Shown piece after piece: positions 3,313-63,326 of a DNA stretch of 64,000 nucleotides. A program made the position numbers and the translations under genes. The notes beneath the pieces are model-generated. The model saw only the letters and a program-made list of their open reading frames with translations, ran no database searches and was not told where the DNA came from. Origin of the DNA: Hemibagrus wyckioides (lineage: Eukaryota; Chordata; Actinopteri; Siluriformes; Bagridae); assembly GCF_019097595.1 (NCBI RefSeq), contig NC_080719.1, forward strand, positions 14,503,501 through 14,567,500, read 5' to 3'. How positions within the stretch are numbered: the first letter of the stretch is position 1; each line of letters starts with the position of its first letter.

Positions 3313-4092
3313 TTTGCCTTCTGATGTTTGCATAGGCCCAAAACCTACAACAAAATATACACTCTCATTATAAAGCTCTGCCCTAAATTTTTTCAGATGA
3401 GCCGGAAGACTTGCCTTCTTCACTTTAGCAGTGGTCACATGCCAGAGCTCTTCAAGGAAGAGTAGACAGACAGGAGCTTCTTTCATTTCAGTGCCGTAAT
3501 AAAATAGAAAGTGTACACAGCTTGTTCCCAGTACAGTCATTTACCTGCCCCAGAGAGCCTGAAGTACTCTTACTGATGTTGCTGGGAACAAGCTGTGGAG
3601 TTTTAAAAGCTCACTCTTTGTATTTTAGCTTTTCAAATGTCAGACTCTGGGAAAATGTTAGGAGTGTTTTGAGCAGCTTTAGCTGAAAAGATTTTTGCTT
3701 CAGCTGTTACTGATCACTCAGCCACGTCTTTGAGTCTGATTCTTACAGTAATTGCTATTGGAATTTTGTGTCAGGAATAAAACACATCTGGTCATGTTGA
3801 TATAGAAAATTAATCAACAATGTGATGGTGGCCTGATGCGAAGATGTTACTAAAGTTGAATTATTTTTCTATAACAACACAAATCAAAATGTTTTATTCC
3901 TCTTACAACATACACAGATTTCTGGTATCAGTTACATTATGGAAGCTATAAACAATTGTTGTTGAGGTTAAGACTAAAATAATGCATTGCTTGCAAAAAC
4001 CTTCTTATATTCATGGAGGAACTGAAAAATGTGAAGTGATCAATCCTGAAAGTGAATACTTACTTCTATAAATATTAAATACTTTACATATA
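3313..4092. other. Pseudogene intron; unrecognised open frame and inverted repeat
   Basis: A 78-codon minus-strand open frame (3540-3304) matches nothing I recognise and lies entirely within the intron, so I do not call it a gene. A 14-bp inverted repeat (CAGCTTGTTCCCAG about 3517-3530 against CTGGGAACAAGCTG about 3580-3593) could form a hairpin. The rest is AT-rich. Confidence 0.35.
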
Positions 4093-5343
4093 TAGACTAT
4101 ATTGCCAGAAGTATTCGCTCACCTGCCTTGACTCGCATATGAACTTAAGTGACATCCCATTCCTAATCCATAGGGTTAAATATGACGTCGGTCCACCCTT
4201 TGCAGCTATAACAGCTTCAACTCTTCTGGGAAGGCTGTCCACAAGGTTTAGGAGTGTGTTTATGGGAATTTTTGACCATTCTTCCAGAAGCACATTTGTG
4301 AGGTCACATACTGATGTTGGACGAGAAGGCCTGGCTCTCAGTCTCTGCTCTAATTCATCCCAAAGGTGTTCTATCGGGTTGAGGTCAGGACTCTGTGCAG
4401 GCCAGTCAAGTTCATCCACACCAGACTCTGTCATCCATGTCTTTATGGACCTTGCTTTGTGCACTGGTGCACAGTCATGTTGGAAGAGGAAGGGGCCAGC
4501 TCCAAACTGTTCCCACAAAGTTGGGAGCATGGAATTATCCAAAATGTCTTGGTATGCTGAAGCATTCAGAGTTCCTTTCATTGGAACTAAGGGGCCAAGC
4601 CCAGCTCCTGAAAAACAACCCCACACCATAATCCCCCCTCCACCAAACTTTACACTTGGCACAATGCAGTCAGACAAGTACCGTTCTCCTGGCAACGGCC
4701 AAACCAGACTCGTCCATCAGATTGCCAGATGGAGAAGCGCGATTCGTCACTCCAGAGAACGCGTCTCCACTGCTCTAGAGTCCAGTGGCGACGTGCTTTA
4801 CACCACTGCATCCGACGCTTTGCATTGCACTTGGTGATGTATGGCTTGGATGCAGCTGCTCGGCCATGGAAACCCATTCCATGAAGCTCTCTGCGCACTG
4901 TTCTTGAGCTAATCTGAAGGCAACATGAAGTTTGGAGGACTGTAGCGATTGACTCTGCAGAAAGTTGGTGACCTCTTCGCACTATGCGCCTCAGCATCCG
5001 CTGACCCCGCTCCGTCAGTTTTCGTGGCCTACCACTTCGTGGCTGAGTTGCTGTCGTTCCCAAACACTTCCACATTCTTATAATAGAGCTGACAGTTGAC
5101 TGTGGAATATTTAGGAGCGAGGAAATTTCACGACTGGATTTGTTGCACAGGTGGCATCCTATCACAGTTCCACGCTGGAATTCACTGAGCTCCTGAGAGC
5201 GACCCATTCTTTCACAAATGTTTGTAAAAACAGTCTGCATGCCTAGGTGCTTGATTTTATACACCTGTGGCCATGGAAGTGATTGGAACACCTGATTCCG
5301 ATTATTTGGATGGGTGAGCGAATACTTTTGGCAATATAGTGTA
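4093..5343 (-). mobile_element. Tc1 transposon, family 2, copy 1 (frameshifted transposase)
   Basis: Terminal inverted repeats (ATATTGCCAGAAGTATTCGC left; the complementary GCGAATACTTTTGGCAATAT right) lie at TA targets. The minus strand encodes a Tc1 transposase in two pieces, about 5291-4650 and 4695-4084. The first has paired-like helix-turn-helix sequence ([31 protein letters not shown]), a GRPRK hook and the first catalytic Asp in VLWSDESRFSIW. The second has QHDCAP (second Asp) and [14 protein letters not shown] (final Glu). One base is missing near 4698 relative to copy 2 at 54795-55831, which shifts the frame, so the copy is inactive although all three catalytic residues persist. Confidence 0.92.
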
Positions 5344-5589
5344 TCTCCTTACAGAAATCTTCAGTGTATTACTCGTTAGTTTTTAAAACGAATATTAAAC
5401 AAGTGCATTAATATGAACCTGATTTGTATAAATAGGTTAAATAAAATGTCCTGCTGAAAGGCTTACTAATATAACAGTCTGTTTTTCTTTGTTTCCTGGT
5501 TTGAGTTTAGTGAATGAACTGCAGTAATGCTTTAAATAACGATTAACATTTAATAATTCAATAATTTAATTTAATTTAATTTAATGCAG
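5344..5589. other. Pseudogene intron, AT-rich
   Basis: It contains a TTTAA-rich run (about 5555-5585) just before the acceptor of the third pseudogene exon. No gene is seen. Confidence 0.4.
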
Positions 5590-11160: not shown

Positions 11161-11215
<55 letters not shown>

Positions 11216-11240
11216 ATGAAATTAGTAGAACATGTTTGTG

Positions 11241-11272
<32 letters not shown>

Positions 11273-11290
11273 CTTCTTATTATTATTATA
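11037..11290. repeat. Dispersed repeat with paired AAT/ATT microsatellites
   Basis: A unit beginning AGTTATATTTATTTAGTGCT and containing AACAATGAATATTGTCACAT is followed by (ATA)n at about 11161-11210 and (TAT)n at about 11242-11288. The same unit with the same paired microsatellites recurs at 39885-40135, and its head recurs inverted near 43575-43650. The two opposite triplet runs could pair into a long AT hairpin about 100 bp upstream of the cabyr-like promoter. Confidence 0.65.
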
Positions 11291-11514: not shown

Positions 11515-11695
11515 ATGTGTAAGCAATTTATTGCCGATAAAACCGAAACCTTTGAGGGCTGGCCAACGGTGTTACTGCCGTTTGGCCTGTCGAAGTTGCT
11601 GGAGAACATGACCAGGGCAGTTATGATTGAACAGCCGGAAAACTTCGTCTTGTTTCTGGTTAATTACATGTTTGATCTGCTACTGTACATGGACC
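11515..11695 (+). CDS. cabyr: cabyr-like exon 1: RII-alpha/R2D2 docking domain
   Basis: It encodes 60 residues plus one base, ending TACATGGACC before a GTAAGT donor. The pattern P-F-G-L-x-x-L-L-E-x-x-T-R-A-V, then EQPENFVLFLVNYMFDLL, matches the two-helix dimerisation/docking fold of CABYR, SP17 and PKA RII subunits. Hydrophobic spacing is kept throughout. Confidence 0.85.
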
Positions 11696-14600
11696 GTAAG
11701 TATTTTTTTCCCACTAAACAAAACTTTTAGCACTTTACAACAATAGTAGATTTCGTGCTGTCAAATTAGCTTCAGATTATAACGGTAATGGGTTTTCGAT
11801 GGCTGATGTGTGAAGAAAAGCTTTCTTTGTGGCTCGTAATTACAACATATACTACCATCTTCAGTGAAATTTAGCTAGCAGCTTAGCTCTTTTTGCGCTA
11901 CGTGACAGACTGCTATAGTTGACTTGATTTTAGAAAAATGTTTTGATGGCCTAAGACTGAAAATTGAACAGGGTGGCAGAGCAGCACCACAGTTTGTACA
12001 GCTCTCTCGGTATAGTGAAAGTGACTGGCTAATTAAGAGCATGTACTGCTGGCCGTGTTTGCGGACAGACCCCTTAAAATGGCGGAAATGAAAGTGAATG
12101 AAATAATAATAAACAGAAGATGTTTCCAACACCTGGTTACAAGGGGATTCAATGTGCAAGCAGATAATAACAGCAAACAACAGGAAACTAAAACTATTGT
12201 CAAAAACACGCGAGCTAAGTATGAAACAAGCTACGACTATAGCTAAGTTATCTTCCTAATGAAGTACTCCATTAGTATTTACACTTTATAAACACATAAA
12301 TGTCCCCTTATGACTCTGTCGCATAACAACAGATGAGTAAATCAAATATAATTTTTTTTCCTTAAACGGCGGTTGACTAGTTATTGTGTTGTGTATTGTA
12401 TTTACAACCATTTCTACATTGTGTATTATGTTGTATTTACAGCCATTTTTGTTGTATTTGACAATCTTTATGCTACAAATGTAAGTTATTATGACCAACT
12501 GCCTTGGTTTTGATTCCTCAGAAAACCCATCCCTGGACATGAATGAAGTCATAATTGGATTTCAAGCCAGGAGAGGTGAGTTTTATGACAAACCATATAT
12601 AAAAAAATGTATTCCTGATTTCTTAATAATTTTTAAACATTGTTGTAAAAAAACAGTGAAGCTTTAACAGAATAAAGAGACATTAACAATAATAATAGTA
12701 AAAAAATATATAAATACTTTTTTCTGGATTCTCAGAAGAGGTCAAGAAAATATATTATGACGCCACAACTGGTGGAGTTCAAGGTTTCAGGAAGGAAAGT
12801 GGGAAGTGTTCCCCAAACCTCCTCTCAACCAGTCAAGGTGAGAACTGTTGATTACTGCAAACTTAAAATGGTACTGTTTAAGATAAATTAAAGAATTGTA
12901 TGTTGTTTATTTTTATGCCAAGAAGAGTTTCAGAATTATTAAATTAGAATATTGGTTGTTTCTGTATGTGTAAGGAAAAATTTCTGTTTTCAATAATATG
13001 ATGTTTGTGGTTTGTTAAACCACACACCTGGTATATAATATTGGGATATAACCTGCTTAAATGTTGTCAACTTTAATCATAAGCTGCTCCTGTTTACACA
13101 ATTGCACTTTCTGACTATATAGTATACAATTATAGAAGGAACATCTTGCTGTATTAGCAAAGTTCTGCATGGTTAATGTTATATCCTCTCCTCTCACTGC
13201 AGTTAAACATAGTCCAATGCCACAACGAAAACCTTTGAGAAGATTATCAGCCACTTTGAAAAGACTTGTTATACAGAAAAAATGTTCAAAGAGTGATGGT
13301 GAATCCACTGACCAAGAGAAACACTCTACTGGACTGGCAAAGACATCATCTCATCTGGATAGTGATCTGATGTCCTTTGAAGTAATTTCCTGTCCTGTCA
13401 CAACACAACAGGAGGCTTCACTAGATAAAGGTACATTTCACAGACAGACAACTTCATTGAACTTATGAAGAGGTATTTATTATATTGACTAGTGTCTGTA
13501 AATAGACAGTAATCACAGCCATAATGCCAACAATTACCAGTACCTAACAATTACACTGGTAAAAGCATGCACAGAACATTGAACACTGAGGTGTATGGAC
13601 TACAATGGCAGAAGAACACTTTGAGTTTCTCTCCTTTCAGCCAAAAAAAGGAATCTGAGGCTATCGTTTTAGAAACAGTTATTTGAGGCAGTTTTTCACT
13701 CATGTATCCATCACTGGACAGCTGATAACTTTAACCAAATAGATTTAATCTTAAAACTATCATGAAGTCAGACATGAATCTCCTTCTTCCAATCTTAAGT
13801 TTTTTTTTAACTCATAAGTTCCTGTTTACACAATTGCACTTTTTGACTATATAGTATAGTTATAAAAGGAACATCCTGTTGTATTAGCAAACTTCTGCAT
13901 GGTTAAGGTTATATCCTCTCCTCTCACTGCAGTTAAACCTCAACAAATTCCCCCACCAAAACCTAAGAGAAATCCAGCAGCAGCTTTAAAAACTTCTGCT
14001 TATCTGATGAAATATTCTGAGATTCATGGTGAATCCACTGACCAAGAGAAACACTCTACTGGACTGGCAAAGACATCATCTCTTCTGGATTGTGATCTGA
14101 TGTCCTTTGAAGTAATGTTTTGTCCCGTCACAACGCAACAGGAGGCTTCTCTAGATAAAGGTACATTTCACAGACAGACAACTTCATTGAACTTATGAAG
14201 AGGTATTTATAATATTGACTAGTGTCTGTAAATAGACAGTAATCACAGCCATAATGTCACCAATTACCAGTACCTAACAATTACGCTGGTAAAAGCAGTA
14301 ACAAGCAGTACTAATGCTCAATGATTGTTTTTCAGAAGTTGGATTTGACAGAGCTCAGTCCAGTGAAGTCAGTGTCACACCACCTGAAAGTGTTCCTGAT
14401 GTCGAGCTGCTACAGGAAACACCAGTGGTCGAAGGTAAATTACAAAATACACAGTATTGTGTACAAAAACTCAAAACATGGAGTGAGCGGCTGTTCAGTG
14501 GATGGAAACTCCTTGTTGATAAGAAAGGTTAGATCAAAATGGCCTGTTTTGTTTGAGCTGACAGGAAGAATTTAGTAACTTCTATAATAATTCCACAACT

Positions 14601-17600
14601 GTGGTGAGCAGAAAAGCATCTCAGCATGCACACAACATTGAACACTGAGGTGTATGGACTACAATGGCAGAAGAACACTTTGAGTTTCTCTCCTGTCAGC
14701 CAAAAAACGGAATCTGAGCCTATCATTTTAGAAGCAGTTATTTGAGACAGTTTTTCACTCATGTCTCCATCACTGGACAGCTGATAACTTTAACCAAACA
14801 GATTTAATCTTAAAACTATCATGAAGTCAGACATGAATCTCCTTCTGCCAATCCTAAGTTTCTTTTAAACTTATAAGTTCCTGTTTACACAATTGCACTT
14901 TTTGACTATATAGCATACAGTTATAGAAGGAACATCCTGTTGTATTAGCAAAGTTCTGCATGGTTAAGTTTATATCCTCTCCTCTCACTGCAGTTAAACA
15001 TAGTCCAATGCAGCGACAAAAACCTTTGAGAAGATTATCAGCCACTTTAAAAAGACTTGTTATACAGAAAAAATGTTCAAAGAGTGATGGTGAACCCACT
15101 GACCAAGAGAAACACTCTACTGGACTGGCAAAGACATCATCTCTTCTGGATTGTGATCTGATGTCCTTTGAAGTAATGTCCTGTCCTGTCACAACGCAAC
15201 AGGAGGCTTCACTAGATGAAGGTACATTTCACAGACAGACAACTTCATTGAACTTATGAAGAGCTATCATTTTAGAAGCAGTTATTTGAGACAGTTTTTC
15301 ACTCGTGTCTCCATCACTGGACAGCTGATAACTTTAACCAAATAGATTTAATCTTAAAACTATCATGAAGTCAGACATGAATCTCCTTCTTCCAATCCTA
15401 ATTTTTTTTTAAACTCATAAGTTCCTGTTTACACAATTGCACTTTTTGACTATATAGTATACAGTTATAAAAGGAACATCCTGTTGTATTAGCAAACTTT
15501 TGCATGGTTAAGTTTATATCCTCTCCTCTCACTGCAGTTAAACCTCAACAAATTCCCCCACCAAAACCTAAGAGAAATCCAGCTTATCTGATGAAATATT
15601 CTGAGATTCATGGTGAAACCACTGACCAAGAGAAACACTCTACTGGACTGGCAAAGACATCATGTCTTCTGGATTGTGATCTGATGTCCTTTGAAGTAAT
15701 GTTTTGTCCCGTCACAACGCAACAGGAGGCTTCCCTACATAAAGGTACATTTCACAGACAGTCAACTTCATTGAACTTATGAAGAGGTATTTATAATATT
15801 GACTAGTGTCTGTAAATAGACAGTAATCACAGCCATAATGCCACCAATTACCAGTACCTAACAATTATGCTGGTAAAAGCAGTAACAGGAAGTACTAATG
15901 CTCAATGATTGTTTTTCAGAAGTTGGGTTTGACAGAGCTCAGTCCAGTGAAGTCAGTGTCACACCACCGGAAAGTGTTCCTGATGTCGAGCTGCTACAGG
16001 AAACACCAGTGGTCGAAGGTAAATTACAAAATACACAGTCTTGTGTACAAAAACTCAAAACATGGAGTGAGCGGCTGTTCAGTGGATGGAAACTCCTTGT
16101 TGATAAGAAAGATCAGCAGAAAATGGCCTGTTTTTTTTTAGCTGACAGGAAGAATTTAGTAACTTCTATAATAATTCCACAACTGTGGTGAACAGAAAAG
16201 CATCTCAGCATGCACACAACATTGAACACTGAGGTGTATGGACTACAATGGCAGAAGAACACTTTGAGTTTCTCTCCTGTCAGCCAAAAAACAGAATCTC
16301 AGGCTATCATTTTAGAAATGGTTATTTGAGGCAGTTTTTCACTCGTGTCTCCATCACTGGACAGCTGATAACTTTAACCAAATAGATTTAATCTTAAAAC
16401 TATCATGAAGTCAGACATGAATCTTCCAATCCTAATTTTTTTTTAAACTCATAAGTTCCTGTTTACACAATTGCACTTTTTGACTATATAGTATACAGTT
16501 ATAGAAGGAACATCCTGTTGTATTAGCAAAGTTCTGCATGGTTAAGTTTTTATCCTCTCCTCTCACTGCAGTTAAACATAGCCCAATGCGGCGACAAAAA
16601 CCTTTGAGAAGATTATCAGCCACTTTAAAAAGACTTGTTATACGGAAAAAATGTTCAAAGAGTGATGGTGAATCCACTGACCAAGAGAAACACTCTACTG
16701 GACTGCCAACGACATCGTCTCGTCAGGATAATGCTCTGATGCCCTGTGAAGTCATGTCTTGTCCCATCGAAATGCAACAGGAGGCTTCTCTAGATAAAGG
16801 TACATTTCACAGACAGACAACTTCATTGAACTTATGAAGAGGTATTTATAATATTGACTAGTGTCTGTAAATAGACAGTAATCACAGCCATAATGCCACC
16901 AATTACCAGTACCTTACAATTATGCTGGTAAAAGCAGTAACAAGCAGTACTAATGCTCAATGATTGTTTTTCAGAAGTTGGATTTGACAGAGCTCAGTCC
17001 AGTGAAGTCAGTGTCACACCACCTGAAAGTGTTCCTGATGTCGAGCTGCTACAGGAAACACCAGTGGTCGAAGGTAAATTACAAAATACACAGTCTTGTG
17101 TACAAAAACTCAAAACATTGAGTGAGCGGCTGTTCAGTGGATGGAAACTCCTTGTTGATAAGAAAGATCAGAAGAAAATGGCCTGTTTATTTTTTAGCTG
17201 ACAGGAAGAATTTAGTAACTTCTATAATAATTCCACAACTGTGGTGAACAGAAAAGCATCTCAGCATGCACACAACATTGAACACTGAGGTGTATGGACT
17301 ACAATGGCAGAAGAACACTTTGAGTTCCTCTCCTGTCAGCTACAAAACAGAATCTGAGGCTATCATTTTAGAAGCAGTTATTTGAGACAGTTTTTCTCTC
17401 ATGTATTCATCACTGGACAGCTGATAACTTTAACCAAATAGATTTAATCTTAAAACTATCATGAAGTCAGACATGAATTTCCTTCTTCCAATCCTAATTT
17501 TTTTTTAAACTCATAAGTTCCTGTTTACACAATTGCACTTTTTGACTATATAGTATACAGTTATAGAAGGAACATCCTGTTGTATTAGCAAAGTTCTGCA

Positions 17601-20600
17601 TGGTTAAGTTTTTATCCTCTCCTCTCACTGCAGTTAAACATAGCCCAATGCGGCGACAAAAACCTTTGAGAAGATTATCAGCCACTTTAAAAAGACTTGT
17701 TATACAGAAAAAATGTTCAAAGAGTGATGGTGAATCCACTGACCAAGAGAAACATTCTACTGGACTGCCAACGACATCGTCTCGTCAGGATAATGCTCTG
17801 ATGCCCTGTGAAGTCATGTCTTGTCCCATCACAACGCAACAGGAGGCTTCTCTAGATAAAGGTACATTTCACAGACAGACAACTTCATTGAACTTATGAA
17901 GAGGTATTTATAATATTGACTAGTGTCTGTAAATAGACAGTAATCACAGCCATAATGCCACCAATTACCAGTACCTAACAATTATGCTGGTAAAAGCAGT
18001 AACAAGCAGTACTAATGCTCAATGATTGTTTTTCAGAAGTTGGATTTGACAGAGCTCAGTCCAGTGAAGTCAGTGTCACACCACCTGAAAGTGTTCCTGA
18101 TGTCGAGCTGCTACAGGAAACACCAGTGGTCGAAGGTAAATTACAAAATACACAGTCTTGTGTACAAAAACTCAAAACATTGAGTGAGCGGCTGTTCAGT
18201 GGATGGAAACTCCTTGTTGATAAGAAAGATCAGAAGAAAATGGCCTGTTTATTTTTTAGCTGACAGGAAGAATTTAGTAACTTCTATAATAATTCCACAA
18301 CTGTGGTGAACAGAAAAGCATCTCAGCATGCACACAACATTGAACACTGAGGTGTATGGACTACAATGGCAGAAGAACACTTTGAGTTTCTCTCCTGTCA
18401 GCCAAAAAATGGAATCTGAGGCTATCATTTTAGAAGCAGTTATTTGAGACAGTTTTTCACTCATGTCTCCATCACTGGACAGCTGATAACTTTAACCAAA
18501 TAGATTTAATCTTAAAACTATCATGAAGTCAGACATGAATCTCCTTCTTCCAATCCTAATTTTTTTTTAAACTCATAAGTTCCTGTTTACACAATTGCAC
18601 TTTTTGACTATATAGTATACAGTTATAGAAGGAACATCCTGTTGTATTAGCAAAGGTCTGTATGGTTAAGTTTTTATCCTCTCCTCTCACTGCAGTTAAA
18701 CCTCAACGAATTCCCCCACCAAAACCTAAGAGAAATCCAGCAGCAGCTTTAAAAACTTCTGCTTATCTAAGGGAATATTCTGAGATTCATGGTGAAACCA
18801 CTGACCAAGAGAAACACTCTACTGGACTGGCAAAGACATCATCTCGTCAGGATAATGCTCTGATGCCCTGTGAAGTCATGTCTTGTCCCATCACAACGCA
18901 ACAGGAGGCTTCACTAGATAAAGGTACATTTCACAGACAGACAACTTCATTGAACTTATGAAGAGGTATTTATAATATTGACTAGTGTCTGTAAATAGAC
19001 AGTAATCACAGCCATAATGCCACCAATTACCAGTACCTAACAATTATGCTGGTAAAAGCAGTAACAAGCAGTACTAATGCTCAATGATTGTTTTTCAGAA
19101 GTTGGATTTGACAGAGCTCAGTCCAGTGAAGTCAGTGTCACACCACCTGAAAGTGTTCCTGATGTCGAGCTGCTACAGGAAACACCAGTGGTCGAAGGTA
19201 AATTACAAAATACACAGTATTGTGTACAAAAACTCAAAACATTGAGTGAGCGGCTGTTCAGTGGATGGAAACTCCTTGTTGATAAGAAAGATCAGAAGAA
19301 AATGGCCTGTTTATTTTTTAGCTGACAGGAAGAATTTAGTAACTTCTATAATAATTCCACAACTGTGGTGAGCAGAAAAGCATCTCAGCATGCACACAAC
19401 ATTGAACACTGAGGTGTATGGACTACAATAGCAGAAGAACACTTTGAGTTTCTCTCCTGTCAGCCAAAAAACAGAATCTGAGGCTATCATTTTAGAAACA
19501 GTTATTTGAGACAGTTTTTCACTCGTGTCTCCATCTCTGGACAGCTGATAACTTTAACCAAATAGATTTAATCTTAAAACTATCATGAAGTCAGACATGA
19601 ATTTCCTTCTTCCAATCCTAAGTTTTTTTTAAACTCATAAGTTCCTGTTTACACAATTGCACTTTTTAACTATATAGTATACAGTTATAGAAGGAACATC
19701 CTGTTCTATTAGCAAAATTCTGTATGGTTAAGTTTTTATCCTCTCCTCTCACTGCAGTTAAACCTCAACGAATTCCCCCACCAAAACCTAAGAGAAATCC
19801 AGCAGCAGCTTTAAAAACTTCTGCTTATCTAAGGGAATATTCTGAGATTCATGGTGAAACCACTGACCAAGAGAAACACTCTACTGGACTGGCAAAGACA
19901 TCATCTCTTCAGGATAGTGATCTGATGCCCTGTGAAGTCATGTCTTGTCCCATCACAACGCAACAGGAGGCTTCACTAGATAAAGGTACATTTCACAGAC
20001 AGACAACTTCATTGAACTTATGAAGAGGTATTTATAATATTGACTAGTGTCTGTAAATAGACAGTAATCACAGCCATAATGCCACCAATTACCAGTACCT
20101 AACAATTATGCTGGTAAAAGCAGTAACAAGCAGTACTAATGCTCAATGATTGTTTTTCAGAAGTTGGATTTGACAGAGCTCAGTCCAGTGAAGTCAGTGT
20201 CACACCACCTGAAAGTGTTCCTGATGTCGAGCTGCTACAGGAAACACCAGTGGTCGAAGGTAAATTACAAAATACACAGTCTTGTGTACAAAAACTCAAA
20301 ACATTGAGTGAGCGGCTGTTCAGTGGATGGAAACTCCTTGTTGATAAGAAAGATCAGAAGAAAATGGCCTGTTTATTTTTTAGCTGACAGGAAGAATTTA
20401 GTAACTTCTATAATAATTCCAAAACTGTGGTGAGCAGAAAAGCATCTCAGCATGCACACAACATTGAACACTGAGGTGTATGGACTACAATGGCAGAAGA
20501 ACACTTTGAGTTTCTCTCCTGTCAGCTACAAAACAGAATCTGAGCCTATCATTTTAGAAGCAGTTATTTGAGACAGTTTTTCACTCATGTCTCCATCACT

Positions 20601-23600
20601 GGACAGCTGATAACTTTAACCAAATAGATTTAATCTTAAAACTATCATGAAGTCAGACATGAATCTCCTTCTTCCAATCCTAATTTTTTTTTAAACTCAT
20701 AAGTTCCTGTTTACACAATTGCACTTTTTGACTATATAGTATACAGTTATAGAAGGAACATCCTGTTGTATTAGCAAAGTTCTGCATGGTTAAGTTTTTA
20801 TCCTCTCCTCTCACTGCAGTTAAACATAGCCCAATGCGGCGACAAAAACCTTTGAGAAGATTATCAGCCACTTTAAAAAGACTTGTTATACGGAAAAAAT
20901 GTTCAAAGAGTGATGGTGAATCCACTGACCAAGAGAAACATTCTACTGGACTGCCAACGACATCGTCTCGTCAGGATAATGCTCTGATGCCCTGTGAAGT
21001 CATGTCTTGTCCCATCGAAACGCAACAGGAGGCTTCTCTAGATAAAGGTACATTTCACAGACAGACAACTTCATTGAACTTATGAAGAGGTATTTATAAT
21101 ATTGACTAGTGTCTGTAAATAGACAGTAATCACAGCCATAATGCCACCAATTACCAGTACCTAACAATTATGCTGGTAAAAGCAGTAACAAGCAGTACTA
21201 ATGCTCAATGATTGTTTTTCAGAAGTTGGGTTTGACAGAGCTCAGTCCAGTGAAGTCAGTGTCACACCACCGGAAAGTGTTCCTGATGTCGAGCTGCTAC
21301 AGGAAACACCAGTGGTCGAAGGTAAATTACAAAATACACAGTCTTGTGTACAAAAACTCAAAACATGGAGTGAGCGGCTGTTCAGTGGATGGAAACTCCT
21401 TGTTGATAAGAAAGATCAGAAGAAAATGGCCTGTTTATTTTTTAGCTGACAGGAAGAATTTAGTAACTTCTATAATAATTCCACAACTGTGGTGAACAGA
21501 AAAGCATCTCAGCATGCACACAACATTGAACACTGAGGTGTATGGACTACAATAGCAGAAGAACACTTTGAGTTTCTCTCCTGTCAGCCAAAAAACGGAA
21601 TCTGAGCCTATCATTTTAGAAGCAGTTATTTGAGACAGTTTTTCACTCATGTCTCCATCACTGGACAGCTGATAACTTTAACCAAATAGATTTAATCTTA
21701 AAACTATCATGAAGTCAGACATGAATCTCCTTCTTCCAATCCTAAGTTTTTTTTTTTAACTCATAAGTTCCTGTTTACACAATTGCACTTTTTGACTATA
21801 TAGTATACAGTTATAAAAGGAACATCCTGTTGTATTAGCAAAGGTCTGTATGGTTAAGTTTTTATCCTCTCCTCTCACTGCAGTTAAACCTCAACGAATT
21901 CCCCCACCAAAACCTAAGAGAAATCCAGCAGCAGCTTTAAAAACTTCTGCTTATCTAAGGGAATATTCTGAGATTCATGTTGAAACCACTGACCAAGAGA
22001 AACACTCTACTGGACTGGCAAAGACATCATCTCTTCTGGATAGTGATCTGATGCCCTGTGAAGTCATGTCTTGTCCCATCACAACGCAACAGGAGGCTTC
22101 TCTAGATAAAGGTACATTTCACAGACAGACAACTTCATTGAACTTATGAAGAGGTATTTATAATATTGACTAGTGTCTGTAAATAGACAGTAATCACAGC
22201 CATAATGCCACCAATTACCAGTACCTAACAATTACGCTGGTAAAAGCAGTAACAAGCAGTACTAATGCTCAGTGATTGTTTTTCAGAAGTTGGATTTGAC
22301 AGAGCTCAGTCCAGTGAAGTCAGTGTCACACCACCTGAAAGTGTTCCTGATGTCGAGCTGCTACAGGAAACACCAGTGGTTGAAGGTAAATTACAAAATA
22401 CACAGTATTGTGTACAAAAACTCAAAACATTGAGTGAGCGGCTGTTCAGTGGATGGAAACTCCTTGTTGATAAGAAAGATCAGAAGAAAATGGCCTGTTT
22501 ATTTTTTAGCTGACAGGAAGAATTTAGTAACTTCTATAATAATTCCACAACTGTGGTGAACAGAAAAGCATCTCAGCATGCACACAACATTGAACACTGA
22601 GGTGTATGGACTACAATGGCAGAAGAACACTTTGAGTTTCTCTCCTGTCAGCCAAAAAACGGAATCTGAGCCTATCATTTTAGAAGCAGTTATTTGAGAC
22701 AGTTTTTCACTCATGTCTCCATCACTGGACAGCTGATAACTTTAACCAAATAGATTTAATCTTAAAACTATCATGAAGTCAGACATGAATCTTCCAATCC
22801 TAATTTTTTTTTAAACTCATAAGTTCCTGTTTACACAATTGCACTTTTTGACTATATAGTATACAGTTATAGAAGGAACATCCTGTTGTATTAGCAAAGT
22901 TCTGCATGGTTAAGTTTTTATCCTCTCCTCTCACTGCAGTTAAACATAGCCCAATGCGGCGACAAAAACCTTTGAGAAGATTATCAGCCACTTTAAAAAG
23001 ACTTGTTATACAGAAAAAATGTTCAAAGAGTGATGGTGAATCCACTGACCAAGAGAAACATTCTACTGGACTGCCAACGACATCGTCTCGTCAGGATAAT
23101 GCTCTGATGCCCTGTGAAGTCATGTCTTGTCCCATCGAAACGAAACAGGAGGCTTCCCTAGATAAAGGTACATTTCACAGACAGACAACATTGACTTCCA
23201 ATTCCAATTCTAAATTATTTTTAAACTCATAAGTTCCTGTTTACACAATTGCACTTTTTGACTATATAGTATACAGTTATAGAAGGAACATTGTGTTGTA
23301 TTAGCAAACCTCTGCATGGTTAAGGTTATATCCTCTCCTCTCACTGCAGTTAAATCTCGACAAATTCCCCCACCCAAACCTAAGAGAAATCCAGCAGCAG
23401 CTTTAAAAACTTCTGCTTACCTAAGGGAATATTCTGAGATTCATGGTGAAACCACTGACCAAGAGAAACACTCTGGACTGGCAAAGACATCATCTCTTCA
23501 GGATAGTGCTCTGATGTCCTGTGAGGTGACTGATGAATCCGTCACAATGCCACAGGAGGATTCACTAGATAAAGGTACATTTCACAGACACCTTAATTGA

Positions 23601-24427
23601 ACATATAAGTGGCTGTAAATAGACAATAATAACGGTCAAAATTCCATCAGTTACCAATACTAACAAGTCTGCAGATAACATGTGTTCAAAGGTAAATTGC
23701 AAATGAAAGACAATTGTGCAAACAAAACCCCTAAAAAAGTCTATGTATCATCAACTTGAGAAATAACCCCTTTGACAAACCATTTTCCACTAGTGTACCA
23801 CAACAGTCAATATTTCTTGCTGAATGTAATTCCTTTTCTTTACGTTTTTAGGAATTTAAAAGAATTATCAAATGGTTGAGATTCAAACAGTGGCTTTATA
23901 TTGAACTCCTGCAAGATAACCTGCTAACACATTTAGTGATAAAACACTATTTTAGAACACATGACTAAAGACTATAGCCAGATTATAAGTATTTATCCTC
24001 TCTGGTTAATTATAACAATTTCACAACATCATACATTGTCACATTCACTAGCATCCCATCACTGAAGTGCTAAGTTGTGCCTCATATCTTCTGCATCATC
24101 TTTCCCCAGATAAAAATTTGCCATTCAACAAATTTCTAACCGAGTGCTATTTACTTCTGAGGCCATTAAGACTGAAACAAAAACAATGGTGCCTTGGTCT
24201 TTGTAGGATAAGTGGTACAGAAAACAGATGGATTTCATGATTTCATGAGCTTTCCTCCTTTGGAATTTTTAGGTACTAAATCACAGGGACCAAGACCAAG
24301 ACAGGCTATCAGAATCAGCACAGCATCTTCAGAGGAAGAAGAGAACAACCTAAATGACTGTTGGACTTTATACCATCTTCCACATGGGGTGGCAGTGGGA
24401 ACAGTGTCTACCACAGTCCTCTTGTAA
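11515..24427 (+). CDS. cabyr: CABYR-like sperm protein with tandemly amplified exons (gene span)
   Basis: A split gene with exons at 11515-11695, 12522-12575 and 12736-12837, then 12 copies of exon A and 8 of exon B between 13203 and 23574, and a terminal exon at 24273-24427. The N-terminus holds an RII-alpha/R2D2 docking domain (about residues 14-55, LPFGLSKLLENMTRAV). This fold binds AKAP-type helices in the sperm fibrous sheath and is shared by CABYR and SP17. Every internal exon starts and ends in phase 1. The summed exons give 3,996 nt, or 1,331 aa plus stop, if all are used. ATG 11515 was chosen because the frame upstream of it has no other ATG. Human CABYR lies next to TTC39C and LAMA3, both present downstream here. 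The repeat region has no family I can name. Transcript structure is inferred from splice sites only. Confidence 0.82.
12522..12575 (+). CDS. cabyr: cabyr-like exon 2
   Basis: A 54-bp exon between a TGATTCCTCAG acceptor and a GTGAGT donor, phase 1-1. With the base carried over from exon 1 it reads QNPSLDMNEVIIGFQARR, which continues the region just after the docking domain. Confidence 0.75.
12736..12837 (+). CDS. cabyr: cabyr-like exon 3
   Basis: A 102-bp exon, phase 1-1, with acceptor GGATTCTCAG and donor GTGAGA. It encodes EEVKKIYYDATTGGVQGF and then a Ser/Asn-rich tail ending STSQ. It is the last exon before the repeat array. Confidence 0.72.
13079..13810 (+). repeat. cabyr: Array unit 1 (exon A type H; exon B lost)
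   Basis: Exon A spans 13203-13430. The sequence then jumps from CTGGTAAAAGCA straight to the GCATGCACA of the Tc1 fossil, so exon B is deleted. The shared AGCA/GCA at the junction suggests a microhomology deletion. The unit is a diverged edge copy. Confidence 0.85.
13811..14869 (+). repeat. cabyr: Array unit 2 (exon A type P, exon B)
   Basis: Exon A spans 13933-14160 and exon B spans 14336-14434. Exon A encodes a head rich in Pro (QIPPPKPKRNP) and a tail with LMSFEVMFCPV. The Tc1 fossil here has a shifted frame relative to later units, but it is intronic. Confidence 0.88.
14480..14790 (+). mobile_element. Tc1 transposase fossil inside the repeat unit (example copy)
   Basis: Directly after exon B, GTGAGCGGCTGTTCAGTGGA, CTCCTTGTTGATAAGAAAGG, ACTGTGGTGAGCAGAAAAGC and CTCCTGTCAGCCAAAAAACG follow the order of the interior of a common fish Tc1 family (a related element is at 48067-48541). 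It is a small, frame-broken piece without terminal repeats. Equivalent copies sit in units 4 to 10, and a part remains in unit 1. It was therefore already in the ancestral unit when amplification began. Confidence 0.7.
14870..15413 (+). repeat. cabyr: Array unit 3 (exon A type H; exon B lost)
   Basis: Exon A spans 14994-15221. After CTTATGAAGAG the sequence jumps directly to CTATCATTTTAGAAG, removing exon B and most of the Tc1 fossil. This breakpoint differs from that in unit 1, so the losses were independent. Confidence 0.87.
15414..16447 (+). repeat. cabyr: Array unit 4 (short exon A type P, exon B)
   Basis: Exon A is 207 bp (15538-15744), missing seven codons (the AAALKTS segment of other P copies) without loss of frame. 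Exon B spans 15920-16018 and differs from the common copy only at synonymous sites (GGG for GGA, CCG for CCT). Confidence 0.87.
16448..17509 (+). repeat. cabyr: Array unit 5 (exon A type H, exon B)
   Basis: Exon A spans 16572-16799 and exon B spans 16975-17073. It is the first of the highly homogeneous block, and its exon A tail changes from the AKTSS...SFEV form to PTTSSRQDNALMPCEV. Confidence 0.9.
17510..18571 (+). repeat. cabyr: Array unit 6 (exon A type H, exon B)
   Basis: Exon A spans 17634-17861 and exon B spans 18037-18135. It is nearly identical to unit 5, giving two H units in a row and breaking the H-P alternation. Confidence 0.9.
18572..19633 (+). repeat. cabyr: Array unit 7 (mosaic exon A, exon B)
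   Basis: Exon A spans 18696-18923 and exon B spans 19099-19197. Its head is type P, and AKTSS is followed by the RQDNALMPCEV tail otherwise attached to type H, so it looks like a recombinant or gene-conversion product. Confidence 0.9.
19634..20695 (+). repeat. cabyr: Array unit 8 (exon A type P, exon B)
   Basis: Exon A spans 19758-19985 and exon B spans 20161-20259. The type P head is followed by AKTSSLQDSDLMPCEV. It forms the second of two consecutive P units. Confidence 0.9.
20696..21759 (+). repeat. cabyr: Array unit 9 (exon A type H, exon B)
   Basis: Exon A spans 20820-21047 and exon B spans 21223-21321. Exon B carries the same synonymous variants as unit 4 (GGG, CCG), which points to exchange between distant units. 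The unit is 1,064 bp because of a longer T run. Confidence 0.9.
21760..22815 (+). repeat. cabyr: Array unit 10 (exon A type P, exon B)
   Basis: Exon A spans 21884-22111 and exon B spans 22287-22385. One codon differs in the IHVET segment (Val for Gly), and exon B has GTT for GTC near its end, which is synonymous. Confidence 0.9.
22816..23225 (+). repeat. cabyr: Array unit 11 (exon A type H; exon B lost)
   Basis: Exon A spans 22940-23167. A truncated intron leads directly into the next unit, so exon B and the Tc1 fossil are absent. A short CCAATTCCAATTC motif marks the junction. Confidence 0.88.
23226..23600 (+). repeat. cabyr: Array unit 12 (diverged exon A type P; no exon B)
   Basis: Exon A is 225 bp (23350-23574), one codon shorter in HSGLA, and its tail (SCEVTDESVTMPQEDS) is the most diverged of the array. 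It is the 3' edge unit, followed by unique intron sequence. Confidence 0.87.
23601..24272 (+). other. Last intron of the cabyr-like gene
   Basis: Unique sequence with no exon seen. It ends in the polypyrimidine tract and acceptor TGGAATTTTTAG. Confidence 0.6.
24273..24427 (+). CDS. cabyr: cabyr-like terminal exon
   Basis: After the acceptor at 24271-24272 the phase-1 frame opens GTKSQGPRPRQAIRISTASS, continues with an acidic EEEENN cluster and DCWTLYHLPHGVAVG, and stops at TAA 24425-24427. It is the only downstream segment that continues the array frame to a stop, and it has an acceptor of the right phase. Confidence 0.75.
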
Positions 24428-24510
24428 CCACAGTATCAAAAAGGGGCAAAAATCCATGCCATCGGACCTGGCTATGTTTTATTCACAGCATGTTAGACTA
24501 GGTAGCAAGG

Positions 24511-25431
24511 TATGGAATAAAATCACTGTCAAAAATAATCGTGCGTAATTCAGAAGATTTGTCTGTAATTCTGTGTTTTGTCCGAGTTGGATTCCAAATT
24601 CTACGGCCACGGCAGTTTGCAGATACGAGATTTTGTGTGTTTCTTACAGTACAATCTAAAATGTATGACTATGACTGTTTACAGACACAATGCTCGTTTT
24701 CACAACACCTTTGTTACACGGACGACATGCGAAATTAGACCCACAAATGTAGTGTGTTAAACCACTGTCAAAAATACATCATCAAGGCCACATGCACAGG
24801 AATTACTATCCGAGGGAAGATGAATTGATTCGGCGCATGCGCCCCGCCACCGTTTTAAACCACGGGCGCCAAAATGCCAGATCAGCAGCCAAGCGCTCAC
24901 TCATCTATGGAAGCCCGTTCCCGCCACTGAATAAAAAATAAAAAAGGTCATTGTGACTTTTTATCTCACGATTCGGACTTTTTTTCTCAGAATTGTGAGT
25001 TGCACGGTTCACATCTAAGTTTGAAATAGGCATTTTGTGTTAGCCACCTTTTTGAAATGCCAGAATTTGATATAACCCCGTTCATGATATAACAATTTTC
25101 CTCTGCATGCCCCTTAACATGCAAATCAAGGGAGAGTTCTGTTGATGTACTGCCAAGCCCCAGTGAAGTACCGCTGTGGTCCAGTAAAAAATAATGATAA
25201 ATCATTGTCTGATGATAGATATTACAGTATACCGTAAGTGAAAACGAGCGTTGTGTCTGTAAATGGTCATAGTCGTACATTTTAGAGTTGTACTGTAAGA
25301 AACACACAAAATCTCGTATCTGTAAACTGTCGTGGCCGTAAAATTTGGAATCCATCTCGGACAAAACACAGAATTACACACAAATCTTTTGAATTACGCA
25401 CGATTATTTTTGACAGTGATTTTATTCCATA
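24511..25431. mobile_element. Foldback-type element with about 194-bp inverted repeats
   Basis: The left arm at 24511-24703 begins TATGGAATAAAATCACTGTC. The right arm at 25238-25431 is its diverged reverse complement. The arms are highly similar over about 190 bp, and the middle (24704-25237) is a mix that includes a CTTTTTATCTCACGATTCGG motif of another fish repeat. No transposase is seen, so it is non-autonomous. Target duplications are not evident. Confidence 0.82.
24516..24521 (+). terminator. Candidate polyadenylation signal
   Basis: AATAAA, 89 bp after the cabyr-like stop. It lies inside the left inverted repeat of the foldback element at 24511-25431, so the transposon may have supplied the gene's 3' end. 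Confidence 0.45.
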
Positions 25432-25639
25432 ATTAAGATGGTGATCAGACCACCTCCTCGTCAACGTAAAAATGCTTAGCCCTGTGGCGTGGAAAAGTGT
25501 ACCAAATGTGTTCTTTTTAATTAAATCAAATAAAAAATCTAAATTGCAATAAAAAGCCTTTTATGACTGTCTGTTACATACAAGTCGAATTTTGAAATGA
25601 ACAATCTATAATTTAGAATATAATTATGAAACAAAACAT

Positions 25640-39945: not shown

Positions 39946-40011
39946 CAGCCTACAAAAAACTGGATATAGGTTTTGTGTGTAAAACAATAACAGTCAGTGC
40001 AATAATAACAG

Positions 40012-40076
<65 letters not shown>

Positions 40077-40097
40077 TTAGTAGTAGACAGTTGTATG

Positions 40098-40134
<37 letters not shown>

Positions 40135-40140: not shown

Positions 40141-40660
40141 GTATCAGTTCAGTGAAGTCAGTGTCACACCACCTGAAAGTGTTCCTGATGTCGAGCTGCT
40201 ACAGGAAACACCAGTGGTCGAAGGTAAATTACAAATTACACAGTATTGTGCACAAAAACTCAAAACATTAAATGAGCGGCTGTTCAGTGGATGGAAACTA
40301 ATTGTTGATAAGAAAGGTCAGAGGATGATTTGTTTGAGCTGACAGGAAGAATTTAGTAACTCCTATAATAATTCCACAACTGTGGTGAACAGAAAAGCAT
40401 CTCAGCATGCACACAACATTTAACATTGAGGTGTATGGTCTACATTGGCAGAAGACCACTTTGAGTTCCTCTCCTGTCAGCCAAAAAGGAATTTGAGACT
40501 ATCGTTTAAGAGGCAGTTATTTGAGGCAGTTTTTCACTCAAGTCTTCTTCACTGGACAGCTGATAACTTTAACCAAATACACAATTGCTCTTTTTGACTA
40601 TATAGTATACAGTTATAGAAGGAACATCCTGTTGTATTAGCAAACTTCTGCACAGTACAG
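40141..40660 (+). pseudogene. Orphan fragment of the cabyr-like repeat unit with exon B
   Basis: From AGTGAAGTCAGTGTCACACC the sequence reads the exon B peptide EVSVTPPESVPDVELLQETP intact, then the GAAG/GTAAAT donor. The Tc1 fossil and the intron motif TGACTATATAGTATACAGTT follow, ending near 40650 just before where exon A would start. The first part of exon B (VGFDRAQ) and its acceptor are missing, so this cannot be spliced normally. It lies about 16 kb from the array, on the same strand, between inverted duplication arms. Confidence 0.85.
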
Positions 40661-41757: not shown

Positions 41758-43245
41758 GCGGGCACTGAAATATCTTATTTGGACAGGCATAAAGCGTGAT
41801 ATAGCACATTATTGCCAAACCTGTCACACGTCAGGTAGTAGGTCCCAATCAACCCCAATCAAGTCATCCCACCTGCACCCCTACAGCCCATTTTATTTCA
41901 GATTGAGCCCATTGAGCGTATAATGGATTGTGTTGGTCCCCTGCCCAAGACCCATTCTGGCAATTGTTATTTGCTGACCCTCATGAGTGCTGCTACTCGT
42001 TTCCCAGAGGCTATTCCAATGCATACTCTTAAATCTAAGACTGTCATCAAAATTCTCATAAAGTTTTGCACTAAGTTTGGTATGCATAAATGTTTACAAA
42101 CAGATTGTGGCTCGAACTTCATGTCATGGCTGTTCTCTCAGGTAGTAAGAGAGTTGCAAATTAGCCATCAGGTCTCGAGTGCCTGAGTCACAAGGTGCCC
42201 TTGAACGTTTCCATCAGACATTTAAGAACATGCTGCGCTCATATTGTATTGAAACTGAAAAGGACTGGGATGAAGGTGTTCTCTTTCTGCTGTGTGGGAG
42301 TCTCTTGGATTTAGTCCTTCTGAGCTTGTGTTCAGTCATACCATACGAGGACCAGGAACAATGGTTGTCAACAGCATCAGGCCACCAAGAAAAGTCGAGG
42401 ACCAGGAACAATGGTTGTCAACAGCATCAGGCCACCAAGAAAAGTCTATTTTGACACATGTTCATGCCCTTCATAAGCGTTTAAGGGTAGTGTGGTACCT
42501 TCTCGAAAGCCCTGATTACAAGATTCCTTGCTGATGTCCTATCTCACACAACATTAATTGAGCATGACATTGACGTAGGTGATCAGTCTCCTATTAGGCA
42601 GCACCCATATAGAGCAACCCCTGCTAATCGACCAATTATGAAGCAAGAAACAGAGTACTTACTTAAACATGGGCTAGCTATCCATTGTGTGAGCCCTTAG
42701 TGTTCACCTTGTAATTTAGTGTTGAAGGCTGATGCCTCATTTCGGTTTTGTACTGATTATTGAAAAGTGAATGCGTTCACTAAACCTGACTCTTTCCTTT
42801 TTCCTAGAATGAAGGATTGTGTAGATTGTGCTGGCATAGCCAAGTTTACTAGCAAGCTGGACCTGTTAAAAAGTTATTGCTAGGTACCCCTCACTCTATG
42901 GGCATCTGAGATTTCTGCGTTTGCTACCCCATACAACTTCCTCCAGTATACGGTCATGGCTTTTGGTCTCTGGAATGCCCCCTCCACATTTCAAAGACTC
43001 ATAAATCGTGTATTGGGGGAGGTCCCAAATTGTGCTCCTTACCTTGATTATGTGGTGGTGTACTTTGATACGTGGGAACAGCACCTAAAACTACTGGAGC
43101 TTGTATCTTCACACCTCTCTGAGGTTTCCTTCATATTGAATTTGGAAAAGTGTGAGTTTGGTAAGGAGGTGATCTCTTATCTCTAGAAAATGGTTGGGCA
43201 GGGTATGGTGAAACCTTTGGATGCTACAGTCCAAGCCATTTGTGT
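41758..43245 (+). mobile_element. Ty3/gypsy-type retrotransposon fragment, integrase before RT (Gmr1-like)
   Basis: An integrase core lies first (about 41800-42530): YWTG-like HYCQTCHTSG, then DCVGPLPKTHSGNCYLLTLM, ATRFPEAIPMHTLKSK, QTDCGSNFMSWLF, and PESQGALERFHQTFKNMLRS carrying the last catalytic Glu. Reverse transcriptase follows (about 42600-43240): a DLLKSY piece, FLQYTVMAFGLWNAP-type sequence, FQRLINRVLGEVPNC, and YLDYVVVYFD at the catalytic YxDD position. The closest sequence resemblance is to Ty3/gypsy, in which integrase normally follows RT. The reversed order is known from Gmr1-type fish elements. A 50-bp direct duplication (42346-42395 and 42396-42445) and several stops show it is dead. 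Confidence 0.8.
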
Positions 43246-47916: not shown

Positions 47917-61576
<13,660 letters not shown>

Positions 61577-62556: not shown

Positions 62557-62606
<50 letters not shown>

Positions 62607-63326
62607 GTTGTTGTTGTTGTTGTTGTTGTTGTTATATATTTATAGATAAACGTTCCTTATCAATTTGGCAACCCTGCTTCCAAATGACCTGCAATATTCT
62701 GCAACAAAATCATTACTATTTGTCCTGCTATGGCAATGTTACATGATATTTAAAGTTACTTAGGTGAAGATGAATGAGATGAACACATATATACATTACT
62801 GTACACACTGCATTAATAAATTAGAGATCACATCAGAGTTTATAAATTCAGAGAGAATAATTTTTCTCACAAAACACCAAAATACATTATATAGTCATGT
62901 AAAAAAATGTTTCATCAAGAGCACAGACAGGAACTAGTGAAAACAAAAAAAAAGCTGACCATTGTTAATTACTAAGTCATTTTCATCATTATACTGGTGT
63001 AAACATTGATGAAAAACCCAAATACCTTTAACATATAGATTCAAAGTACCACTGAAATCATACCAGTTGGTTCCACATGGGTAGCTTAAAGATTAACAAA
63101 AAGAATTTATGTCCATATTTCACCTTTGCTTCTATGAATAATCTTACCTGGATACTGTAGATTTGTACCTAAGAGCTACTGCTGCTGTATTTATAAAGTC
63201 CATCCTGTGTTCACGCCAGGATTCTTGTACACATTCACACTTTCACATACTTTCAGTACAATGGCTATTACATTTTGAGTCTGGTTCCTCCTGAAAAATT
63301 GATTACTAATATTAACAGGCTTTATA
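61990..63326. other. Intergenic between ttc39c and lama3
   Basis: It contains an AGAG run (61991-62004) and several copies of a GGTTGCCAGA/TTGGCAACCCTG motif in both orientations (about 62009, 62296, 62660), which suggests decayed transposon ends. A microsatellite is at 62557-62632. No exon is seen. Confidence 0.45.
62557..62632. repeat. Compound (TTA)n(TTG)n microsatellite
   Basis: About 16 TTA-type units change abruptly to about 9 TTG units. Confidence 0.9.

Follow-up and report, generated by a model that had tools for sequence, protein, structure and literature searches.

In tandem exon duplication, of which the kringle IV array of apolipoprotein(a), the PEVK region of titin and nebulin are known examples, symmetric-phase exons are multiplied head to tail together with their introns and extend one protein. 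This analysis concerns an array of that known kind in the catfish Hemibagrus wyckioides, located in a window of 64,000 nucleotides (assembly GCF_019097595.1, contig NC_080719.1, positions 14,503,501 to 14,567,500 of the forward strand; coordinates below are those of the window). The array forms the middle of a gene with an RIIa-type domain exon at its 5' end, and this gene (copy 2) belongs to a tandem pair of which it is the damaged member, the other (copy 1) sitting 47.5 kb upstream with an RIIa exon of its own. Our preferred explanation, to which we assign a probability of about 0.72, is that a catfish RIIa-domain gene with a middle of repeated symmetric exons has been amplified here to twelve A and eight B exons, shaped by exchange or conversion and with two cassettes of exon A kept. 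It would make a clear case of a vertebrate gene growing through the addition of entire exon units, its tandem paralogue and several catfish relatives having other A and B counts. Apart from the other gene and the other clade, the locus differs from the arrays of apolipoprotein(a), titin and nebulin in retaining two exon cassettes while the rest of the unit is homogenised, and this pattern is its most interesting part.

Clusters of related exons within one gene are also described for Dscam (PMC3364881, in excerpt). The catfish array resembles Dscam in this respect; Dscam exons are, however, mutually exclusive, whereas the predicted catfish relatives suggest serial inclusion. CABYR, the calcium-binding tyrosine phosphorylation-regulated protein of the mammalian fibrous sheath, has a long low-complexity tail after its RIIa domain. 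The catfish gene shares with it the N-terminal RIIa-type domain, and one short relative of the gene carries its name in UniRef, whereas the A and B exon modules belong to the catfish gene. For SPA17 and ROPN1L we know of no counterpart of the repetitive tail. RIIa-type domains dimerise and dock the helices of AKAPs, and the sperm members named in the excerpted source are SPA17, ROPN1, ROPN1L and CABYR, the last described there as an addition of higher animals, humans included (PMC8339350). As ray-finned fish lack a fibrous sheath according to the excerpt of a review (PMC11276731), the fibrous-sheath role of mammalian CABYR is not transferable to the catfish gene.

The array of exon-bearing units

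Array units were defined by using one unit (16505-17566) as BLASTN query against the window. Twelve units lie head to tail on the forward strand between 13136 and 23609, each combining exon and intron sequence as in tandem exon duplication, and start at 13136, 13866, 14927, 15471, 16505, 17567, 18629, 19691, 20753, 21817, 22873 and 23283 (U01 to U12). The start-to-start intervals are 730, 1061, 544, 1034, 1062 (four times), 1064, 1056 and 410 bp, exactly 1,062 bp thus accounting for 4 of 11. Identity to the query unit was 91.5-98.6% for the pieces of U01-U11 and 78% over 339 columns for U12. Exon A is present in all twelve units and exon B in eight, the A-only units being U01, U03 and U11, which have large deletions, and U12 at the array end. 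All A exons (228 nt each except 207 in U04 and 225 in U12) and all B exons (99 nt each) are open, and the 12 A and 8 B exons are uniformly of the symmetric phase 1-1, so that added copies preserve the reading frame. The acceptor strings and the intron strings at the donors are uniform across the 12 A and the 8 B exons, which had been located using those very strings.

The features of copy 2 are given below in window coordinates; exons A and B were taken from the gene model, and the basis of the other features is stated in brackets.

11515..11695, +, E1, RIIa (docking/dimerisation) exon, modelled from an ATG 5 codons upstream of the position of the ATG of copy 1 (Pfam, gene model)
12522..12575, +, E2, phase 1-1, 54 nt, with an NPSLD-like stretch common to the relatives P0001, P0002, P0004 and P0006 (sequence, splice sites)
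12736..12837, +, E3, phase 1-1, 102 nt (sequence, splice sites)
13136..23609, +, array of 12 exon-bearing units (BLASTN with one unit)
13203..13430, +, exon A of U01, type 1
13933..14160, +, exon A of U02, type 2
14336..14434, +, exon B of U02
14994..15221, +, exon A of U03, type 1
15538..15744, +, exon A of U04, type 2, 21-nt in-frame deletion (also alignment)
15920..16018, +, exon B of U04
16572..16799, +, exon A of U05, type 1
16975..17073, +, exon B of U05
17634..17861, +, exon A of U06, type 1
18037..18135, +, exon B of U06
18696..18923, +, exon A of U07, type 2
19099..19197, +, exon B of U07
19758..19985, +, exon A of U08, type 2
20161..20259, +, exon B of U08
20820..21047, +, exon A of U09, type 1
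21223..21321, +, exon B of U09
21884..22111, +, exon A of U10, type 2
22287..22385, +, exon B of U10
22940..23167, +, exon A of U11, type 1
23350..23574, +, exon A of U12, type 2, 3-nt in-frame deletion, 3' half closest to copy 1 exons (also alignment)
24110..24199, +, approximate bounds, vestige of the first of the middle exons that copy 1 retains, acceptor readable, then out of frame and shortened, donor not searched systematically (copy comparison)
24273..24427, +, last exon, to an early stop TAA at 24425-24427 where copy 1 continues to a longer C-terminus (gene model, copy comparison)
24498..25439, +, approximate bounds, insertion with inverted ends behind the early stop, probably a mobile element (splits stretches that nearly adjoin in copy 1)

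A first-pass annotation, made from the sequence letters, had proposed twelve head-to-tail units that each add one exon (76 codons) or two (76 + 33 codons), and the BLASTN unit starts and the open A and B exons bear this description out. The five exon A starts that it listed (16572, 17634, 18696, 19758 and 20820) are exact, and its product of 1,331 amino acids was reproduced, as a conceptual translation, by joining E1, E2, E3, the 12 A and 8 B exons of the array and the last exon.

The array remained invisible to a Tandem Repeats Finder run on the window, in which the longest period was 500. An orphan array fragment (40144..40652, +), consisting of most of exon B, a piece of intron and the start of the next unit, adjoins AAT/TTA simple repeats. 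Unit positions ~576-862 (e.g., 17080-17366), in the intron behind exon B, match many dispersed places in the genome and are probably an old mobile element riding along in the full-length units. The whole unit was considered as a mobile element and rejected, all matches listed outside the locus, in a search that scored the best candidates, being at unit positions 576-862.

The RIIa domain, catfish relatives and the tandem pair

The open reading frame (ORF) of E1 scores against the Pfam RIIa model with an E-value of 1.7e-6 (28 bits) and the spliced N-terminus of copy 2 with 2.4e-6; both copies carry the N-terminal RIIa domain expected of a CABYR relative, with 28.4 bits in copy 1 and 27.5 in copy 2 against a cut-off of 22.4. 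The best relatives of solved structure are SPA17 chains (7my4, E 3e-6; 9fqr, 3.9e-5; 8j07, 1.9e-4), and the PKA RII-alpha chains trail at E 0.48 and above. In R2D2 proteins the loop has one proline, the second being replaced by I, L or V (PMC8339350, in excerpt). Read by eye from the alignment, the loop of the catfish gene resembles that of SPA17, ROPN1L and R2D2 proteins in having one proline and then a hydrophobic residue (V in copy 1), whereas copy 2 has F at this position, outside the I/L/V set.

Protein relatives were sought in a collection of 5.8 billion proteins by searches that need shared five-residue words, are length-restricted and mostly score the best word-sharing candidates. Within these limits six proteins came up in all (P0001-P0006), every one of them named as catfish; more distant relatives may exist outside these six. 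Their A and B modules were counted with hidden Markov models (where two values are given, first pass / after one iteration):

Copy 2 (window gene): A 12, B 8
Copy 1: A 5, B 2
P0001, Pangasianodon: A 4/5, B 4
P0002, Pangasius: one weak A, B 1
P0003, Tachysurus vachellii: A 2, B 10/11
P0004, Pangasianodon: one weak A, B 1
P0005, Bagarius, short, UniRef name beginning 'Calcium-binding tyrosine phosphorylat': A 0, B 2/1
P0006, T. fulvidraco, isoform X21: A 3 (two strong, one weak), B 20/21

Judged by these predicted proteins, exon number varies widely, A having expanded in copy 2 and B in Tachysurus. The first-pass idea of growth by exon-unit amplification is supported, in what is an RIIa-domain gene, and the A and B numbers do differ between this gene, its tandem paralogue and the proteins of other catfishes. 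The first-pass label 'sperm protein' was inferred from the domain and is unproven, as are the suggested polymorphism of array length and the name 'CABYR-like', which draws on a single UniRef name besides the shared domain. As to gene neighbourhood, we take OSBPL1A beside CABYR to be a conserved arrangement and EQVSHHP/VSHHPP to be the signature of OSBP; queried with this signature, the six frames of the 144 kb examined contained neither EQVSHHP nor VSHHPP. Literature searches on CABYR, RIIa, catfish and exon arrays brought up no apparent paper on this gene among the titles and abstract openings returned, and a search for LOC113657731 came back empty.

Comparison with copy 1 led us to reject a single intact gene in the window. 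The first-pass annotation was right about the exon amplification and missed the gene pair, of which it had seen the damaged member. Copy 1 has five A modules (one of them partial and fused in frame to B) and two B modules, and it retains the middle exons, which are common to P0002 and P0004, and a longer C-terminus; one of its middle exons is itself tandemly duplicated (97.2% over 362 bp, L012:907-1916). The two copies are 98.1% identical over the 5' 1.8 kb and 85-88% identical in the 3' flanks. Within the 5' 1.8 kb, E1 differs by 10 substitutions in 166 bp versus 15 in 1,491 bp outside the exons (Fisher p 7e-5), five of the latter 15 adjoining E1, and the 156 bp of E2 and E3 are free of substitutions. 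One of the ten E1 changes is silent, and the other nine alter the residues of eight codons; read by eye against the catfish relatives, copy 2 seems to hold the derived state at five of these eight codons and copy 1 at one (codon 3), two being ambiguous.

The coding signal of the array was examined in an alignment of 16 units from both copies, the fused exon of copy 1 being left out. All three exon indels listed are multiples of three (21, 3 and 30), compared with 5 of the 19 indels that start in introns. Under a rough model, A exons remaining free of stops despite at least 132 changes (copy 2 plus four copy 1 exons) has a P of 0.006, and each of the three variable sites among the eight B exons is synonymous. 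Taken over both copies together, these figures support a coding history of the array; they leave the present function of copy 2 unsettled.

Two versions of exon A

Exon A occurs as two cassette types in six units each, type 1 in U01, 03, 05, 06, 09 and 11 and type 2 in U02, 04, 07, 08, 10 and 12, in the order 1,2,1,2,1,1,2,2,1,2,1,2, which is interspersed without clustering. Across all 12 units the types share no base at 33 sites (34 without U12), all within unit positions 74-160 of 1,062 and thus inside exon A (68-295); under a looser rule (more than 80% of pairs differing, U12 left out) there are 36 sites at positions 74-169, and partial type differences end close to the end of exon A. Segregating sites in U01-U11 number 40/113 in the 5' half of exon A, 26/115 in its 3' half, 3/99 in exon B and 72/735 in the introns (Fisher p versus introns 4e-11, 2e-4 and 0.024, respectively). 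An excess of the 3' half of exon A over the introns is also seen inside type 1 (23/115 versus 42/735, p 2e-6); inside type 2, with U12 set aside, it is weak (13/115 versus 44/735, p 0.04).

Over codons 1-36 the nonsynonymous (dN) and synonymous (dS) divergence between the types is 0.52 and 0.32 in copy 2 and 0.40 and 0.20 within copy 1; the four between-type dN/dS ratios are 1.6-2.3, values given without significance test. Since dS between the cassettes far exceeds intron divergence (~2-6%), the cassettes appear to be old, with the introns around them homogenised. In the aligned sequences the unit thus appears homogenised around two retained versions of exon A, with exon B nearly invariant. 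Copy 1 holds relatives of both types, at distances of ~14-15% and 10-13% over the 5' half of exon A, and a third type; in its type 2 unit, introns and exon have diverged from copy 2 to about the same extent, the exon excess hence not being universal. This contrast between homogenised introns, a near-invariant B and two A cassettes would allow the locus to test selection versus recombination barriers in a tandem array.

Type 2 exon A (e.g., 18696-18923) shows a weak Pfam resemblance to NYAP_N over the part holding PPPKPKRNP (E 6.8e-5, 22.7 bits versus a cut-off of 38.6), which we discounted as due to a PPPKPKR-like stretch common to both.

Explanations of the array and remaining features of the window

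The mechanism that we infer for the amplified gene is as follows. As each unit carries flanking intron, unequal crossing-over in introns would add or remove 76 or 109 residues with the frame intact, and recombination and gene conversion would hold the units alike except in exon A, whose 5' half persists in two versions. The exons would be included serially in one transcript, and the product would consist of an N-terminal dimerising domain of the AKAP-docking type, putatively with a role in sperm, and a long tail of A and B modules; the tail may set spacing or partner number, its length being changed by unequal crossing-over. A stronger version, which we regard as doubtful, is a two-cassette system under diversifying selection, in which exchange and conversion erase the other unit differences and selection keeps the 5' half of exon A in two versions (three with copy 1) while their number and order vary. 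If it were true, the tail composition of a flagellar docking protein would be reshuffled per catfish lineage.

Several observations weigh against the preferred explanation. The array gene of copy 2 is known here from genome sequence alone, and among the five relatives scanned not one reaches the Pfam cut-off for the RIIa model (P0001 is just under, P0003 and P0005 are further under, P0002 and P0004 give no hit), although the N-termini of the relatives nevertheless align with copies 1 and 2. The original start codon of copy 2 is gone, ATT standing at 11530 where copy 1 has ATG, the middle exons of copy 1 are missing apart from the out-of-frame remnant, and an early stop interrupts the last exon; A exons of copy 2 alone are stop-free despite at least 71 changes, which is not significant (P 0.06 under the rough model). 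Comparisons within types in copy 2 give dN/dS values of 0.57 for type 1 and 1.07 for type 2, which leaves little or no purifying selection on A in this copy. Within neither type does the variability of the A 5' half surpass that of the introns (8/113 and 6/113, p 0.52 and 1), and exon and intron variability are alike in the youngest subfamilies. The damage, with the probable mobile-element insertion behind the early stop, and the ratio near 1 in type 2 exons speak for copy 2 being a decaying duplicate whose array arose and was shaped as coding sequence and now expands and drifts without function, a reading whose chances we put only a little short of even. Against it stand the 20 array exons, all open and spliceable, the in-frame exon indels and the purely synonymous variation in B, the in-frame ATG located five codons upstream of where the original one was lost, and the substitution excess in E1, which lies above neutral decay at the local rate. 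We give roughly even odds to present-day translation of copy 2. Slightly less probable, though still a serious contender, is that the exon-confined divergence is passive, a diverged block having stopped gene conversion while the introns were homogenised around it without selection. The high dS between cassettes relative to introns and the intron-like variability of the 5' half within types agree with such a barrier, as does the dN/dS of same-type exons between copies (codons 1-36; 1.13 for type 1 and 0.69 for type 2), which weighs against a purely selective reading; dN above dS between the cassettes in both copies (in ratios without significance test), the excess of the 3' half over introns within types, the exon excess in E1 and the ending of partial type differences near the end of exon A do not.

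The amplified RIIa-domain gene with serially included exons also has to be set against mutually exclusive or otherwise alternative splicing of types 1 and 2. Two sharply distinct versions in six units each, a phase of 1-1 throughout, which keeps any exon subset in frame, and the Tachysurus relative named isoform X21, suggesting many annotated isoforms, would fit such splicing, but predicted relatives join several modules per protein (4-5 A and 4 B in P0001, 2 A and 10-11 B in P0003, 2 strong A and 20-21 B in P0006) and the type order is interspersed, so that we consider it improbable. Less probable again, and by our estimate very improbable, is an array length produced by the assembly: a single assembly is at hand, but each of U01-U11 is distinct in sequence (the least divergent full-length pair has 11 differences in 1,062 sites), which argues against simple assembly duplication, unit lengths range from 410 to 1,064 bp and the paralogue has its own diverged array.

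Elsewhere, scans of the window with Rfam (gathering threshold) and for tRNAs gave no matches. Remnants of Tc1-like transposases lie at 4084-5348 (-) and 54837-55718 (+); an ORF at 4650-5345 scores against the Pfam model HTH_Tnp_Tc3_2, and the second remnant was recognised by a similar ORF only. Pairs of trinucleotide runs are located at 11161-11289, upstream of E1 of copy 2, and at 40001-40134, beside the orphan array fragment (both AAT/TTA), as well as at 62560-62633 (TTA/TTG). A perfect two-copy tandem repeat of 50 bp (42346-42446) lies a short way downstream of an ORF (41842-42183) that matches an integrase core.

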